Source: a virus
Direction: 5' to 3' (one strand)
DNA: 36,518 nt
IMG/VR virus record: IMGVR_UViG_3300033151_000137
Location: 1 to 36,518 of that record
Made by a program: the position numbers and the translations under genes. This document shows positions 9,607-18,754 of this stretch, piece after piece (position 1 is the first letter of the stretch; each line of letters starts with the position of its first letter). The notes beneath the pieces were generated by a model. That model saw only the letters and a list, made by a program, of their open reading frames with translations, made no database searches and was not told the origin of the DNA.

Positions 9607-12600
9607 TTAGAACCTCGGCATAGTATTAGTAATAGGGGCCTTTTCCCCCCTCATTGTTGGCACAGGCAACGCGCCCTTCTTCTTGCTCAGTTCCGTGTTG
9701 TCGACGGGTGTCTCGCCGAATCCTGGAGACCGTAGTGCGTTCATGAATCGCTCGGCGTTGTCTAGCCCGCCCACCTGATCCGCAAACGCCTGAGCGGCCT
9801 TGGGGTCGCTTTCGAGAATGTCCTTCAAGTCTTCCTTCAGGAACGCATTAGTCGCGACCTTGGCCGCCTTGGCGATCACTGACCTGAGTTTATCCGCCCG
9901 GGCAGACTGAGGTCCTTTGTCCATCTTCGAGTACTGTTCATGCTTGAGGGTAGCGTTGACCGCCTCCCTTCGAGCGATGCCGACGCGCTTAACGAGCTTG
10001 TCGTACACGCCGCCAGCCCCTTCGTCCATCGATAGTAGAGAGAACTCCATTCCATGCGTCCGGAGCATAGGAGAAGGTTCCGCAGGCGCGATGCCATTGG
10101 TCGCCAGCTCTTTGGTTGCCCGGTCGTCTTTAAGCGTGCTTACCGCATACGGGCTTATGGCATATACCATAGCGCCGCCTTCCGGAACGATTGGAGATCC
10201 ATCCCAGTACCTGGCCGGTCTAAGGTCCTGGTACAACATAGGGTTGATCTCTTTCATCTTCATGCTGACGTGGTGAGTGAACCCCGTCTCATACTTGCCG
10301 TCATCGTCCATACGAACCGGGTGGGGGTTCGTCACTCGAGACGCAGACTTCAGCGCACTCGAATAGGGAACGAATCCCTGGGCGTAGCTGGCGATCCACT
10401 TGTCCACCCGGGACGGATCGTCGATAGTATCGAGTAGATCCCGCATTCCGGACATGAAGGTAGCATCCAGCGTATGTTTAGCTATGCTGAATCCTCCCGC
10501 CACAATGTGTTTCTGGACGCTCGACTCTTCCCGAGACCAGGCCGCTTGATCGAGCTGATCGACCACGCCTGCAATGCTCATCGCGAACGGGTCGGTCCGC
10601 CGGTAACTGTAGTACTTGTTGCCGATCCGAATGGAATTAGGCTGCCATCCTGTTCGCTCAAGGGTCTTTCTCAGCTTATAGTCTTTAGGACCATTGCCGG
10701 TCAGGTTCCCCGCTTGGTACGCCGCAAACACGGAGCCCGTCACGGCAAGACCGGTGACCAGTTTAGCCTGGGCTACATCTGCCCGAGCACCACCTGCCGC
10801 CAGGTCCCCTCTCAACTCTTTATCGAGACCCGCTAATATGCTCGACTGGAGGCCGTAGTGGACCAGGTTGGCCGGTGTGTTTATGAACGGAGTCAAGAAC
10901 TTAAAGGCGGGCACCTCTGCAGACAGCCGCTTTAGGGACCGAGCGATCACGCCTACGACGCCTCGCTGGTCTTCCGTTGTCATGGTGATCTCTTTAGACT
11001 TCGTCATGGCCGCGTCGTACAGCTCATCAGACGGGTCGTCCAGGACACCCTTGACATGTTGATCTAGAGATTGGCCCGACTTACCCGCTGCCAGGCCATC
11101 ACGAACGGCCAACGCAGTCAGTTCCGATCGGAACGCCAGGGTCTTGCCATAGGCGTCTTCAGCCTGCAGCAGTCGGAAGGACAAGGTCGAGGCGTCAGCG
11201 ACTGCTTTGCCCATCTTCTCCCCGGTCTCCCCGCCGAGTCGGCCCCCCACGTACATGGCCGTCTCTTCTATGGCCCCTTTGACGTTGGTGCTTTTCTCGG
11301 ATCCTATCTGAGACTTGCCTGAGATCAGGGTCTCGGTAGCCAATCGGAGGCCGTCTCGGACCCCAGCTACTCCCGACCAGATGCCTGCCAGCGTTTCGTC
11401 CGCACTGACATAATCGTCTCGTTCGCCGATACCTGCAGCGCGTCGAGTCTCCCCGATGGCCGCTGCTACCGGCTTGATTACAAGTGACTCCCATGCCTGG
11501 ACCGTAGCCGTGCCCATCGTATTGACCACATGGGTCTGGACGCCGGACAAGATGTTGTTGGTCCAATACTCCGCCGCAATACGAATGCCGTCTCGCAGCA
11601 CGCGGGGTTTGAACTGTTTGATCAGAGCAGTGTCCGGATTAACTCTCGCTTCCTTAGACAGGTTGGCCGCATGTTTGGCGATGGTGTCCCGGGCGCGAGT
11701 TCCGCCTCCGTCGACCAGCTCCATAATAGCTTCTACACTGCCCGAGTTCAGAGTCTCGGCAATGATGTTTTGTTGTTGCAACGCTCGGGCGACCTGCTTA
11801 ACTTGTCCCTGGGTGTACCGTTGTAAGGCCACGAACGCCTCGGCTTTCTTCTCATAAGCCAGCAGCGTGGCCGGGGTACGGTCACCTTCTGCCACTTTAT
11901 CGGCCAACGTGACAACGTCAGCGCCCAGGGTTGATAGCATCTTTCTCGAGGCGAGCAGTTGCTTGTCGTTCATTAGTCCCACGGTGGCCGGGTCGGCTCC
12001 GAATCTAGACTGCAGAATGTTGCGCACCTGGTCCATGTTCTGTGTCGCTTCTTCCAGCGACTTGTTTGTTCTGACACCGGCGGCGGGCTCGAGGGATCCG
12101 ACTACATCCAACAGCTTGGCGACGTCGTCGGCTGACTTCATCTTGCTCAAGGCTACGTCGGGATCCATCTCGGCCAGGCGCTTGTTAGCGATCCCGCCCT
12201 CGTGGTGACGCTGGACATTGATGTTGCGTTGATCTGTTCGTTTGTCGGCCACTACATCGACCGGTGGCGCGTCTTGATACCCTTCCAGTACTTTGGCTGC
12301 AGTGCCTTCTTCAGGCATAGGCAGGCCGCCGGGAACTTCATCTGCCACAGGCAAATGACTATCATCGCCCAGGGTCAGAGGGTCGCCTTCAGGGGGCAGA
12401 GCTTCGTCTGCTACCTTAGACTCCATGAGGATCCGGTCCAGGTCTTCAGGAGCGGGTCCGTCTTCTTCCATCTTACGACGGGCAGACATCGAGTCGAATA
12501 TGTCCTTGGTCTTCTTCTTAACCAGGCCCGTCTGTCCGAACTCCCGCATCAGAGTTCGAGTGATAGCCGAACCGAGCCCGGCCACCTGGATCTCTTGAGA

Positions 12601-12699
12601 TTGACTGGCTGCGGCCTCTGGGTTCTCCCCGGAGTCTCGAAGGTTATAGGCGGACAAGAGCTCCAGGTCGCCCTGGTCGCTTGGGTTTCTATTGATCAT
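9607..12699 (-). CDS. large internal virion (DNA ejection) protein
   Basis: A 1030-residue protein starting MINRNPSDQGDLELL. An earlier in-frame start at 12888 would put 63 arginine-rich residues over the upstream gene, so the ATG at 12699 is preferred; it overlaps the upstream stop as ATGA. The sequence is mostly helical, with a more hydrophobic central part near residues 430-480 (YWTNNILSGVQTHVVNTMG) and glycine/alanine-rich segments such as LVTGLAVTGSVFAAYQAGNL. Length, position before the tail fibre and composition fit the gp16-like core protein that is ejected into the cell envelope. I see no lytic transglycosylase motif. Function is assigned by context more than by motif. Confidence 0.7.
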   Translation of the reverse strand: MINRNPSDQGDLELLSAYNLRDSGENPEAAASQSQEIQVAGLGSAITRTLMREFGQTGLVKKKTKDIFDSMSARRKMEEDGPAPEDLDRILMESKVADEALPPEGDPLTLGDDSHLPVADEVPGGLPMPEEGTAAKVLEGYQDAPPVDVVADKRTDQRNINVQRHHEGGIANKRLAEMDPDVALSKMKSADDVAKLLDVVGSLEPAAGVRTNKSLEEATQNMDQVRNILQSRFGADPATVGLMNDKQLLASRKMLSTLGADVVTLADKVAEGDRTPATLLAYEKKAEAFVALQRYTQGQVKQVARALQQQNIIAETLNSGSVEAIMELVDGGGTRARDTIAKHAANLSKEARVNPDTALIKQFKPRVLRDGIRIAAEYWTNNILSGVQTHVVNTMGTATVQAWESLVIKPVAAAIGETRRAAGIGERDDYVSADETLAGIWSGVAGVRDGLRLATETLISGKSQIGSEKSTNVKGAIEETAMYVGGRLGGETGEKMGKAVADASTLSFRLLQAEDAYGKTLAFRSELTALAVRDGLAAGKSGQSLDQHVKGVLDDPSDELYDAAMTKSKEITMTTEDQRGVVGVIARSLKRLSAEVPAFKFLTPFINTPANLVHYGLQSSILAGLDKELRGDLAAGGARADVAQAKLVTGLAVTGSVFAAYQAGNLTGNGPKDYKLRKTLERTGWQPNSIRIGNKYYSYRRTDPFAMSIAGVVDQLDQAAWSREESSVQKHIVAGGFSIAKHTLDATFMSGMRDLLDTIDDPSRVDKWIASYAQGFVPYSSALKSASRVTNPHPVRMDDDGKYETGFTHHVSMKMKEINPMLYQDLRPARYWDGSPIVPEGGAMVYAISPYAVSTLKDDRATKELATNGIAPAEPSPMLRTHGMEFSLLSMDEGAGGVYDKLVKRVGIARREAVNATLKHEQYSKMDKGPQSARADKLRSVIAKAAKVATNAFLKEDLKDILESDPKAAQAFADQVGGLDNAERFMNALRSPGFGETPVDNTELSKKKGALPVPTMRGEKAPITNTMPRF

Positions 12700-15600
12700 G
12701 GCATCGTAGCCTCTTCTTGAATTCGTAGAGCGTCCCCGTACTCGGAGTGAGACAAGGCGGCAACGTCCGCTGCGCCGTCCCCTTGGTAAGCAGGGTCGTA
12801 GGCCATCATGACAACGTCGGGCTCGCCTCGGTTGTATAGGTGATACACATCTTTGGCCCACCCACCCGGCGCTTCGGCGTCGTCCCATGGCACCTTAGCC
12901 ACAGGCTTCATGCCTAGTACCGAGTAGAATCCAGGAAGGATAGTGTTGAATGCGTCTAGCTTTCGACCTCCCTCCTGTATAGCGAGGGACATCATGGAGA
13001 TCATTCCATTAGGTTCCGCAGAACTCGAGAACACACTAACAATGTCACCGTCAGGTTTAAGAGCAAATCCAGCCTTGCCATCGTCCATGACGAAAGTGCG
13101 CATGTTCTTATAATCAGGTTCATCGTAAACATAGACAGACGACCCGAACTTATGGGTCGCTGCTGATTGTGATATGGCCGCGTGGAAATCGGCGGAGCTA
13201 TCCGGTCCGATCTCATAGATAGGCGCTTTTGAGATGTTGGCCTGGTCAAAGGCCCAATTAGGTGAGATGGAGTCTTTCTTGTGTCCGACTTTACCCGTCG
13301 AAGGCAAGTACTCCGCGACTGCAGCGACATCCGAGTTTAGAACCCGTACGCTTTCGCCATCTCCGCTATGTCTTCGTCCGTGACTCCGGGGTGCGCCTTC
13401 TTGATGCTCTCGAAAGTGCTGGTCCCGTAGGTTTCTTGCAGTGCCTTGACTGATGAGCTGGGCTCTTTCGGCGGGTTCAAGTTCGGGTCTTTGGAGTCCG
13501 CCAGTTTGCCCAGCCTCTGGTAGAATTCCTGATCCCCCAGTTCCTCCCGTTTCCGATCCATCTCCTCGTGCAGCCCGTTCCCTAGCTCGCTCGATGCCAT
13601 CTTCTCCGAGTTCTGCTCGGTAGTATTCTGTGAATGCTTTCTCATAGTCGTTGTCCCGTCCGGTTTGTTTAGACCCCATTCTATCCCATAAACGCTGCTC
13701 TGGGAACCATAAGGTAGCCTGAACTGCAGCCTCATCCATCTCAAGGCCAGTATGAGCGTTAACTCGGTTCTTGATCTCGGTCACAAGATCCCGCATTTGC
13801 TGCCGTTCTTGGCCGCCTGCTGGGGTGTCTTTCGCTTTCTCACGATTAAGGATAGCGCGAACCAGCTTGTGGACCTTGTTCTTCTTCTCAGGATGCCCGG
13901 CTCTCGCCCACTTGCCGTACGAGGTCATCGCCCAGTCGATCAAAGCTTCGTCGTCGGTCAGATCCTCAGGCAGCGCGTCGAACGCCTCCATCTGGGATGC
14001 GTTCTTCTTGTACTTGATCTCTTTCCGTAGCTCTTTCAACTGCTTGGGCAGTCTGTCCTGACGAACTTTACCCGTCAGTCGGCCATAGGTTCGCGTCCAC
14101 CAAAGGTCGAACGTGGGAATGTCCCAGCGACCGTTCAGGTTCGAGAAGAACCCGGAGCCAATCTTCGGCCCCATCAGTTGAGATCCTGGGAGCATAGCGT
14201 CGGACGCTTCCCCCTTATAGTCGTCGATGATCCCCGCCGCTTTCAATTCTGCAGGCGTGAACTCGGTAAACAGCACCTTCTGGAACCGCTCCTCGCCCAT
14301 CGTCTCGATCGCCCGATTGTACTTGGCGAACGTCCCGGCCATAGTGACTCCTGAAGGACCACCTTGTGTGAAAGTCTCCGGGAACTTCCCGGTCTCACGA
14401 TACACACGATACGCCTGGTCGGCCAGCTTCACATTGGCGGACACGTTCTGACCCTGACTAGTGACAGCCAGCGCAAAGTTCGCGGCCACCCGCTTGATCG
14501 GATCGGTTGCCGTTTCAGGGAATATCTCTGATCGGATCGACTCCGCCTTGGCCATCGTTTCACGATACCACTCTACGGCGTTGGCCCCTTCTGAGTTCTC
14601 GATCTCCTCCATAACTTCCCGGGCTCCCTTGTCGGCCAGCTCGTTCATGTCGTCTTTAGGATTAAGCACCCGACCGCCAGTCGACTCTCTCGCGAGGTCG
14701 TCCATTACCCGGGTGACCTGCACTGTTGGAGGCGCGATATCATCCGCTTGGATCATCGCGTTCTCGGGCAGCTGCATCAGCCTGGTGGCGTTCACCACGT
14801 CCGCGCTCTCATCGAGGGCAGGGAACTTGTTGATATCCAGGCCGACCGATCCGCGTTGGGCCATAGGGCCTCCGCTTCTATATCCGCCTGGTGCTGTCTG
14901 TAGATTATTCACGCCGCGCTTGATGCCTGCCGCTCCGGCAATGACAGCAGGAGGGAGCGCTGCGCCTAGCGTCGCGCCTGCGACTGCATGGGCGGCCACC
15001 TCGCCTACGTCCACGCCTTCACCCGTGTGTTGTCCTTTGATCACTTGACGACCCGTACTCTCTGCCGCACCGTATCCCGCGCCCTCTGCTGCCCCGATTG
15101 CAGCTATTCGAGCCACTCGGGACTGCAAGGCTTTCTTCAGGATGATTGCACCACCTTTAACTGCAGGTGCTGCGAACAATCGGATGCCCAGGTAAGTGGA
15201 CGGATCCAACCCCACAGCGACCAGTCCCCGCCCGAAGGCGTCCAGACTCATCTCGGTGTTGTCGTAGATTGTAACCATATCGTACAACGACTTGGAGAAC
15301 TCCTCCGAGCCGTTAATGGCCCGTGAGGTCATAATCCCCAGGTAGGCCAAGTTATTCATTCCAGACATGCGCCACTTGCCGTATTCGCTTAGTTCTCCAT
15401 CAGATCCCTGGAACGGTTCGCCCTCGAGGTATTGATGGAACCCTCGCACCGCGTCCAGCCATTGAGGCGTCTCCGCCAGCTGGTCTTCCGTGTAGGTCTC
15501 TGCGGATGGCTCGGGCTCATAGTCCATGGCAGAGGCTGCCTTCTGCATCTCTGGCAGATCCTCGCGCACGAACTTCAACTCGTTGGCCGATCGCCAGGCG

Positions 15601-16127
15601 GTGGATACTTGTTGCTGGCTCCAGCCCTCAGGCATGGTCTCTTTGAAGTCTACGAACTCGCCGCCCGACTTCATGACACCATACGCCACTTTCGAGAGGG
15701 AATATACATCCTCCTCGGGGGCGATGGGGCCGTCGGGGGTCAGGTCCTGGTGACTATCTCTGATCCCGTTAATTCCGTCTCTGATCCAGTTCTCGTCGTC
15801 CTGGAACTGGCCGGTAATGTTCTCACCCGACGCCAGATCGAACCCTGCTATGCCCTTCTTATGGGGCTTAACCGCATTATTAGGCAATGACACCGGGCGT
15901 TCACTCTCCGAGGTCAGGGGGGCGCCTTCGTGGTACGCTTTCGCGTAGTCATAATCCGTCTGCCTGGGGCCGTTAACCTCCAGGTTACTTGTCTTGACCA
16001 GGTTATCCGACTCGAGCTTGTCCTCTGCGCGTTTGTTGTAGTCCTCGACGTCGTCGAACTCCCGCATGAGCTTGTCTACTTCAGACTCAGGTTGTGCCTC
16101 TTCTACTATTCTGGAGGTAAGATCCAC
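12696..16127 (-). CDS. large internal virion protein with C-terminal GNAT-like module
   Basis: A 1143-residue protein starting with GTG in a TAGTG overlap, with an AGGGG ribosome site upstream. Residues about 300-410 have alanine/glycine-rich hydrophobic helices of the type found in ejection proteins. Residues near 720-820 (DEAAVQATLWFPEQRLWDRMG) resemble a domain seen in phage polyvalent proteins. A glycine/arginine-rich linker of about 90 residues follows (about 843-930), which is also covered by an open +1 frame. Residues about 940-1115 (SSVYVYDEPDYKNMRTFV, DDGKAGFALKPDGDIVSVFS, GGRKLDAFNTILPGFYSVLG) look like the acetyltransferase-like module at the end of polyvalent proteins. Probably packaged in the head and ejected with the DNA. 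Ejection role is inferred from position. Confidence 0.72.
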   Translation of the reverse strand: MDLTSRIVEEAQPESEVDKLMREFDDVEDYNKRAEDKLESDNLVKTSNLEVNGPRQTDYDYAKAYHEGAPLTSESERPVSLPNNAVKPHKKGIAGFDLASGENITGQFQDDENWIRDGINGIRDSHQDLTPDGPIAPEEDVYSLSKVAYGVMKSGGEFVDFKETMPEGWSQQQVSTAWRSANELKFVREDLPEMQKAASAMDYEPEPSAETYTEDQLAETPQWLDAVRGFHQYLEGEPFQGSDGELSEYGKWRMSGMNNLAYLGIMTSRAINGSEEFSKSLYDMVTIYDNTEMSLDAFGRGLVAVGLDPSTYLGIRLFAAPAVKGGAIILKKALQSRVARIAAIGAAEGAGYGAAESTGRQVIKGQHTGEGVDVGEVAAHAVAGATLGAALPPAVIAGAAGIKRGVNNLQTAPGGYRSGGPMAQRGSVGLDINKFPALDESADVVNATRLMQLPENAMIQADDIAPPTVQVTRVMDDLARESTGGRVLNPKDDMNELADKGAREVMEEIENSEGANAVEWYRETMAKAESIRSEIFPETATDPIKRVAANFALAVTSQGQNVSANVKLADQAYRVYRETGKFPETFTQGGPSGVTMAGTFAKYNRAIETMGEERFQKVLFTEFTPAELKAAGIIDDYKGEASDAMLPGSQLMGPKIGSGFFSNLNGRWDIPTFDLWWTRTYGRLTGKVRQDRLPKQLKELRKEIKYKKNASQMEAFDALPEDLTDDEALIDWAMTSYGKWARAGHPEKKNKVHKLVRAILNREKAKDTPAGGQERQQMRDLVTEIKNRVNAHTGLEMDEAAVQATLWFPEQRLWDRMGSKQTGRDNDYEKAFTEYYRAELGEDGIERARERAARGDGSETGGTGGSGILPEAGQTGGLQRPELEPAERAQLISQGTARNLRDQHFREHQEGAPRSHGRRHSGDGESVRVLNSDVAAVAEYLPSTGKVGHKKDSISPNWAFDQANISKAPIYEIGPDSSADFHAAISQSAATHKFGSSVYVYDEPDYKNMRTFVMDDGKAGFALKPDGDIVSVFSSSAEPNGMISMMSLAIQEGGRKLDAFNTILPGFYSVLGMKPVAKVPWDDAEAPGGWAKDVYHLYNRGEPDVVMMAYDPAYQGDGAADVAALSHSEYGDALRIQEEATMP
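13337..13600 (-). CDS. overlapping +1-frame ORF inside the ejection-protein gene
   Basis: An 87-codon reading frame, opening MASSELGNGLHEEMDRK and ending IAEMAKAYGF before TAA, lies wholly inside the 1143-residue gene in the +1 frame. The frame stays open further upstream, to 13744. Its codons (GAG, CTG, AAG, ATC, TAC, TTC) look like those of neighbouring genes, while the host frame over the same bases gives a low-complexity Gly/Arg linker. A GGAG lies 3 nt before the ATG, which is close. It may be an overprinted gene, the product of a programmed +1 frameshift giving a shorter protein, or a sign of sequencing indels. I cannot tell which. Confidence 0.35.
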   Translation of the reverse strand: MASSELGNGLHEEMDRKREELGDQEFYQRLGKLADSKDPNLNPPKEPSSSVKALQETYGTSTFESIKKAHPGVTDEDIAEMAKAYGF

Positions 16128-17833: not shown

Positions 17834-18327
17834 GTTACCTTCTTCTTCGCGGTGAGTTTATTGTACCCTTTCGCCAGGTTGGGTGCCTGGGCCCCGATGG
17901 TGCTGACTGCCGTCCCGACAGACCCCCATAAGGCGGCCTCGCCACCTCGACGAAGGTTATCCGCCTCGTAGCCTGCCTGTTGAATGTTGATGGCGTTACG
18001 GGAGTCAGTTGCACGTTGCATCCAGGCAATGTCCTCCTCGAACTTCATCTGCTCCCCGGTACGATAGATCTCCTGGGACCCGCCGCCCTCGGTGCCAGAT
18101 GCTGCAATCGATGCTTTGATCTTGGCCTGTTGCTCCGCGTTGCTCACACGTAGCCTGCGTTCTTCCTCGGTGTTCTCTACATTGGATGCCAGCGCGTTCT
18201 CTTGCGCGATACGTTCCGCGTCAGATGCTGCTGCGTCCGCTGTGTTCTTGGCCTCGACGCCCTGATAGATCCCGGTGCCTGCGGCGACTACCGCGCCTAC
18301 TACTGCTGCAATTTCAAAGCCAGTCAT
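17830..18327 (-). CDS. small internal virion protein (gp14-like)
   Basis: A 165-residue protein. It has an N-terminal hydrophobic helix (FEIAAVVGAVVAAGTGIYQG, residues 3-22), a long polar alpha-helical middle (AASDAERIAQENALASNVENT), and a second weakly hydrophobic stretch near residues 130-155. This layout is typical of T7 gp14-like proteins, which insert in the outer membrane during DNA ejection. It overlaps the preceding GNAT gene by 14 nt and the following gene by ATGA. Assignment rests on size, topology and order. Confidence 0.75.
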   Translation of the reverse strand: MTGFEIAAVVGAVVAAGTGIYQGVEAKNTADAAASDAERIAQENALASNVENTEEERRLRVSNAEQQAKIKASIAASGTEGGGSQEIYRTGEQMKFEEDIAWMQRATDSRNAINIQQAGYEADNLRRGGEAALWGSVGTAVSTIGAQAPNLAKGYNKLTAKKKVT

Positions 18328-18754
18328 TATCGTCGTCCTCGTCCACTATGGAATAGATCGCCAGGTCCCGTCTATTCGGGGACACCTGTCGCAGTACTCC
18401 TTCTTTCTTAAACCCTAATGCTACTAGGAATCGGTTGTATTCGTCATTGTCAGCTAGGCAGGTGGCCTGGATCCGATGGACGGACAGGGTCTCCCACGCT
18501 GTTGCGATGGTGCGCTTGGCAAACTTCATGACCAGGAGGCCGTGACCTCTGACTCGTTCCGAGGGGAACGCGAACATGTCGTACACGCCCGGCACGACGC
18601 AAGACAAGCCAACGATGCCCACCGGGCACCCGTCGACCAGAAGCGTCCAGGTAGGCCCGGCCTCCTCGTCATACTCCGGACCACAAATGTAGTCGCCGAT
18701 ACGAGGTTTAAACATCTTCCGGTCACCGACACGGTAGGTTCTGAACTCTACCAT
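18314..18754 (-). CDS. GNAT-like acetyltransferase fold protein (T7 gp13-like position)
   Basis: A 146-residue protein with GNAT features: beta strands around TWTLLVDGCPVGIVGLSCV (residues ~35-53), a DMFAFPSERVRGHGLLVMKFAKR segment in the place of the acetyl-CoA pyrophosphate loop (residues ~60-82), and a C-terminal ATCLADNDEYNRFLVALGFKKEGVLR motif as in Rim-type acetyltransferases. Podoviruses often have such a protein just upstream of the internal virion genes, and T7 gp13 holds this place. The loop RVRGHG departs from the strict Q/RxxGxG/A pattern (it reads R-V-R-G-H-G, close to it), so activity is plausible. Substrate unknown; it may instead serve as a virion assembly factor. Confidence 0.78.
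   Translation of the reverse strand: MVEFRTYRVGDRKMFKPRIGDYICGPEYDEEAGPTWTLLVDGCPVGIVGLSCVVPGVYDMFAFPSERVRGHGLLVMKFAKRTIATAWETLSVHRIQATCLADNDEYNRFLVALGFKKEGVLRQVSPNRRDLAIYSIVDEDDDNDWL

Follow-up and report, generated by a model that had tools for sequence, protein, structure and literature searches.

We analysed a virus record over its whole length of 36.5 kb (hereafter, the window), which carries genes for terminase, a head-tail adaptor (portal-type), and major head, tail and internal-virion proteins. The gene in focus (hereafter, the outer gene; 12696..16127, minus strand) is an open frame that starts with GTG at 16127 and encodes a 1143-aa protein of the ejection or internal-virion type with a C-terminal GNAT-fold module (hereafter, M). 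Limnohabitans phage DC33 encodes a 3125-aa protein, the middle of which aligned at 31% with residues 516-1116 of the outer protein. Residues 202-315 matched a protein of phage LUZ100 annotated as 'putative internal virion D', and the neighbouring gene (9607-12888) had a PHROG match to 'internal virion protein'. As mechanical ORFs, the neighbouring and outer genes overlap by 193 nt, an overlap that ORF extension has probably created, because the likely start of the next gene is an ATGA overlap at ~12698-12701. A second, stand-alone GNAT-like gene (18314-18754, minus strand; PHROG acetyltransferase) lies within the structural gene region. According to PMC12195039, DC33 has a short tail (32 nm) by electron microscopy; the taxonomy line of its record (L001, PQ492659.1) puts this 39-kb phage in Inoviridae, in conflict with its gene content and the reported short tail.

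By alignment, M spans 12708..13235 (minus strand), and its GNAT fold was recovered by an AlphaFold2 model (pLDDT 88, pTM 0.81) and by PDB matches of that model to GNAT enzymes (Foldseek, 1ghe, E 1.2e-5; VIA, 1y9k, Z 12.0 over 129 residues, rmsd 2.5). The acetyl-CoA loop of GNAT proteins has the motif R/Q-x-x-G-x-G/A. This motif is not kept in M of the window (EPNGMISMM), and the loop was variable in the 31 aligned modules. We therefore refer to M as a GNAT-fold module and not as a proven acetyltransferase; by its sequence, it may not be an enzyme.

A +1-frame ORF of 135 codons from a TTG (13337..13744, minus strand) was found inside the outer gene, as described in an earlier sequence-only reading of this DNA. 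That reading had placed the TAA of the ORF exactly where the module begins; the stop is there (13337-13339), but it lies ~100 nt before the conserved module. The best start in the window is the ATG at 13600, which gives a nested gene of 87 codons (hereafter, S; 13337..13600, minus strand) with the C-terminus HPGVTDEDIAEMAKAYGF*. Its start is preceded at 3 nt by a Shine-Dalgarno-like GGAG (13604..13607, minus strand), a weak signal in this phage. Under the phage's own codon usage, the mean log-odds per codon was +0.236 for S (13340-13600) and negative for the two other frames (main, -0.078; third, -0.202), which bears out the earlier impression that the +1 frame is closer to the coding style of the phage.

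Upstream of the ATG (13601..13744, minus strand), the +1 frame is open as well and the main frame encodes conserved backbone. This part is not supported as S, because the third-position rate of the relatives (see below) stays high until the S start and the S genes of the relatives begin at the position homologous to the ATG. The coding interval first proposed, 13337-13744, thus holds for its last 87 codons and reaches too far upstream. We conclude from sequence comparison that S is a same-strand overlapping gene nested in the linker between the ejection backbone and M.

Conservation of S and selection on both frames

To the end of S in the window corresponds the main-frame motif SGDGESVRVL (13338..13367, minus strand). 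DC33 keeps this motif in the main frame (SGDG..VRVL; SGDGGKVRVL in full), and the same bases read in the +1 frame end in NPGLTRQEIVEMAEKFGF*, a peptide similar to that of the window. Most of the 80 further viral loci found via the outer protein share a +1 frame ending just before M, and the ending is also kept where the main-frame linker differs strongly (L067-L073, L082-L086). The likely S starts of the relatives lie 41 to 102 codons (mostly ~70) before the stop, often with AAGGAG 7 nt upstream, and the S proteins have conserved N- and C-terminal motifs, the former resembling MDAQQQHDxxM.

An S profile built without the window scored 19.5 bits against S of the window, whereas 100 synonymous shuffles reached at most 2.4. 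When this profile was run against all 716 ORFs of the window, only S was significant (E 1.6e-5, compared to 4.3 for the runner-up). We then profiled 72 loci, each representing a cluster at 80% nucleotide identity; the other 2 of the 74 clusters had too little upstream sequence and were skipped. Scores of at least 10 bits that none of 100 synonymous shuffles attained were obtained at 55 loci, 36 of them in training and 19 held out. L070 (score reached by 1/100 shuffles) and L005 (7.2 bits, 0/100) raise the recognised S genes to 57/72, leaving 15/72 loci in which the profile recognised no S.

The length of the ORF is weak evidence for S, because the amino acids of the linker favour an open +1 frame. 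A +1 ORF of at least 87 codons arose at the place of S in 377/1000 synonymous shuffles of the main frame, and a +1 run of at least 147 codons arose somewhere in the outer gene in 71/1000. Among the relatives, +1 ORFs of at least 40 codons were observed in 66/71 loci, and synonymous shuffling predicted 42.8/71, so often that length was dropped as a proof of S; for +2 ORFs, 1.75 were expected from the shuffles and 0/74 observed. As judged from these comparisons, it is conservation, not length, that takes S beyond chance. That +1 ORFs this long are not rare given the linker composition would suit a fortuitous, functionless ORF, or one created by two sequencing indels as had been suggested earlier. 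These readings seem hardly conceivable, given that the arrangement recurs in many unrelated contigs, assemblies and records and that the same bases are conserved in both the main and the +1 frames; we reject sequencing error.

Searches for S by sequence similarity gave little. Tblastn of phage records with the +1 ORF of the window returned chance-level matches only, and nothing exceeded the cut-off when S was compared with Pfam, PHROG and PDB sequences; weak matches below the cut-off were to DUF7188/phrog_1881 and HTH_54. The protein was predicted to be helical by a low-confidence model (pLDDT 64). S is absent from the annotation of the three phage records inspected (DC33, Caron and Barnstormer), and we recognised no description of S in the literature searched, mostly outside subscription papers.

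The substitution rates of related loci revealed constraint on both frames. The main-frame third-position rate was 0.310 upstream of S, 0.088 within S and 0.302 downstream (301 pairs, comprising 68 unique of 78 loci; the window itself had no close enough relative), and the corresponding rates at position 1, the wobble position of S, were 0.0895, 0.0968 and 0.0596. In bins of 10 codons (261 pairs, 56 unique loci), the third-position rate fell from 0.207 to 0.059 at the S start and rose from 0.038 to 0.327 at the S stop, with a freer, variable stretch at S codons 30-39 (0.242). The pair counts are not independent because the pairs share ancestry; the pattern persisted in 21 pairs without reuse of any locus and was clearest in the more divergent pairs. 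Actinobacterial loci with a different S sequence also showed the drop (0.437, 0.130 and 0.402; 34 pairs, 17 loci).

Purifying selection thus acts on both frames in the relatives, the window's own lineage lacking close relatives for the same comparison. The sequence-only reading had named stops in the +1 frame and constraint confined to the main frame of relatives as what would speak against an overlapping gene, and the opposite was found. Going by conservation and rates, both frames encode protein, and S starts and stops where its open frame predicts. We regard S as almost certainly a genuine coding gene.

A single-protein scan of viral contigs with the 1143-aa protein confirmed no relative, and the same kind of scan with the portal returned one close relative (L087), which is too short to span the S region.

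Start signals of S

We searched for start signals under a fixed criterion (spacing of 4-12 nt), which S of the window with its GGAG at 3 nt does not satisfy. SD-like signals preceded 48/57 S genes (at least 5 nt long in 35), whereas synonymous shuffles of 56 loci predicted 12.2. Together with the constraint that begins at the start codon, these signals indicate an initiation site of its own in the relatives, that of the window being weak. Some loci have S as an ordinary gene. In L070, the stop of the upstream gene is followed ~40 nt later by the start of S, whose end overlaps a separate M gene. On the plasmids pKRAD01 and pRop44186_a, RefSeq lists S separately (WP_041293812.1 and WP_183102289.1), in the +1 frame of M.

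A programmed +1 frameshift near 13600, yielding a shorter protein without M, had been offered as an alternative to an overlapping gene, and it would fit a +1 frame whose stop falls just before M. A frameshifted frame would be reached only from the main frame, and this is not what we observed: constraint sets in at the S start codon, SD-like signals precede the S genes, S of L070 begins ~40 nt past the stop of the upstream gene, and two plasmids have S as a separate gene. We consider the frameshift very improbable and reject it. Conservation, the sharp edges of selection and the SD-like starts all support the overlapping gene, and S very probably has its own start.

An internal start that would release free M after the S stop was also considered. 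In the fused loci, an SD-like start at this place was found in 1/57 only; this candidate was dropped, and S is therefore not coupled to free M.

In two contigs from different metagenomes, L066 and L081 (~7314), the main frame has a stop at the usual site of the S stop, so that the outer frame ends and S continues for ten codons. A comparison with the sequence of L020 points to a stop that has switched frames.

Association of S with the GNAT-fold module

To follow S beyond the window, we collected 195 M loci from phages, viral contigs and bacterial genomes; 3 were dropped due to short upstream sequence, and 124 distinct loci formed 74 clusters. A nested +1 ORF of at least 40 codons with its own start was found in 67/74 clusters, and none of 40 codons in the other seven (L006, L077, L099, L122, L124, L126 and L144). 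Loci were also chosen by the backbone only (82 loci, i.e., 80 found plus L002 and L003), of which 9 were too short and 73 could be judged. Both M and S were present in 25, M without S in 4, S without M in 0 and neither in 44 (Fisher p 1e-15). The 4 loci counted as having M without S are those with no profile match to S, and they have +1 ORFs that are S-like by eye.

S was thus present in 25/29 backbone loci with M and in 0/44 without M, which is the pattern expected of an effector-immunity pair, whose small gene should follow the effector module and not its carrier. The profile found S in 6 of 12 records, once in each and always at M; the other 6 include the actinobacterial type, which is outside the reach of this profile. 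No S was found in the distant solo GNAT relatives of phages (L006, L206-L210; 25-37% identity), nor in the minor capsid protein of a Methanobrevibacter virus (L205).

By phmmer, the upstream backbones of the M loci formed 19 components; 5 further loci had no usable upstream frame. S and M are carried together by a VG15/head-protease fusion (L005), an LPD38 protein (L059), an InPase/LPD23 polyvalent protein (L096) and a 3071-aa Nocardia protein with a WXG100_2 domain, encoded beside a WXG100-like gene (L102). Another LPD38 protein carries M with an S that was missed by the profile (L080), and a further Nocardia protein has M and nested S along with Gln_amidase, Zeta_toxin and GT4-conflict domains (L105). 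The two Nocardia proteins place M and nested S beyond phage virion genes.

Comparison of these loci indicates that the S-M pair is one cassette shared by unrelated carriers, namely ejection, head-protease fusion, polyvalent and WXG100-type Nocardia proteins, and that S belongs to M rather than to the backbone. The location of S inside an ejection-protein gene, as first described, stands, but the gene goes with the GNAT-like module and not with the ejection protein. S could alternatively be a real gene that serves the virion backbone, as an assembly factor, packaging adaptor or minor virion protein. Many of the loci are indeed virion or ejection proteins; the absence of S from all 44 loci that have the same backbone without M, and the occurrence of the S-M pair outside phage virion proteins, make this improbable.

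Possible role of the S-M pair

The explanation we favour, and hold to be probable on balance, is that S is an overlapping gene with its own start that is tied to M and binds it, keeping M inactive or folded until delivery. Late in infection, the mRNA of the M-bearing protein would be translated into S as well, giving a small, mostly helical protein of its own in the producing cell. S would bind M and hold it inactive or folded until the carrier is packaged or exported, and M would act without S after injection into the next host. The Gly/Arg-rich linker in the main frame would be a by-product of overprinting. We further propose that recombination could hardly transfer M alone, because the stretch joining M to its carrier contains S.

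For the part of this explanation in which S acts directly on M, we see close to an even chance. A direct partner of M is favoured by three features of the loci compared: S follows M and not the backbone, occurs in one copy and is present with varied carriers of a delivered type. S could be an inhibitor, an immunity protein or a chaperone of M, roles that are not distinguishable here. A delivered effector carrying its own antidote is a tentative and rather doubtful version: S would be the cognate inhibitor, encoded in the other frame of the stretch that fuses M to its carrier, so that the two would rarely be parted by recombination, and the cassette would spread as a unit among ejection, head and polyvalent proteins of phages and WXG100-type proteins of bacteria.

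The conserved start signals would also be expected if S worked mainly via translation, lowering or pacing synthesis of the M-bearing protein, with a peptide of little importance. The S peptide is however conserved along most of its sequence, which costs the main frame synonymous freedom, and has N- and C-terminal motifs; regulation alone would not require such constraint, and we consider this reading quite improbable.

Both overlapping genes and effector-immunity pairs have been described before. In GNAT toxin-antitoxin pairs such as TacT and AtaT, the RHH antitoxin is encoded by a small gene directly upstream of the GNAT-fold gene. S likewise lies just upstream of a GNAT fold; unlike these antitoxins, it gave no above-cut-off match to RHH or any other Pfam family, and it is nested, with M fused to a carrier. 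Rz1 of phage lambda is overprinted within Rz, on the same strand and in the +1 frame. S is a gene of this kind as well, but its link is to a single module of the outer protein, M, which it accompanies across different outer proteins.

Two systems of delivered proteins are also comparable. For MuF polymorphic toxins of temperate phages, Jamet et al. 2017 (PMC5576092) report a small ORF after the toxin gene in 89.4% of 191 and infer immunity from it. As in the S-M pair, a virion protein ends in an effector-like domain that has a dedicated small ORF. Their small ORF is downstream of the toxin gene, whereas S is upstream of M, inside the gene and in the other frame, so that S does not have the MuF arrangement.

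The polyvalent proteins of phages and conjugative elements include GNAT domains of two families (Iyer et al. 2017, PMC5512222). In the available text of this source, the proteins that contain these domains are large and presumed to enter the cell along with the DNA, as are the carriers of M, some of which have LPD38, InPase or LPD23 domains. 'Overlapping' and 'frameshift' do not occur in its main text, where no nested partner was seen; S, in contrast, is nested.

S is conserved in phages and in bacteria of at least two phyla. The pair illustrates that a module can carry a nested partner gene along wherever it is fused, and that gene callers forbidding nested genes overlook partners such as S. 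It also predicts what an injected GNAT-fold module would need in the producing cell, and could serve as a direct handle on the role of virion-carried polyvalent modules.

The surroundings of M in Rhodococcus plasmids and genomes (L097, L212 and L214) have one recurrent feature, an N-formylglutamate amidohydrolase gene that precedes the M gene.
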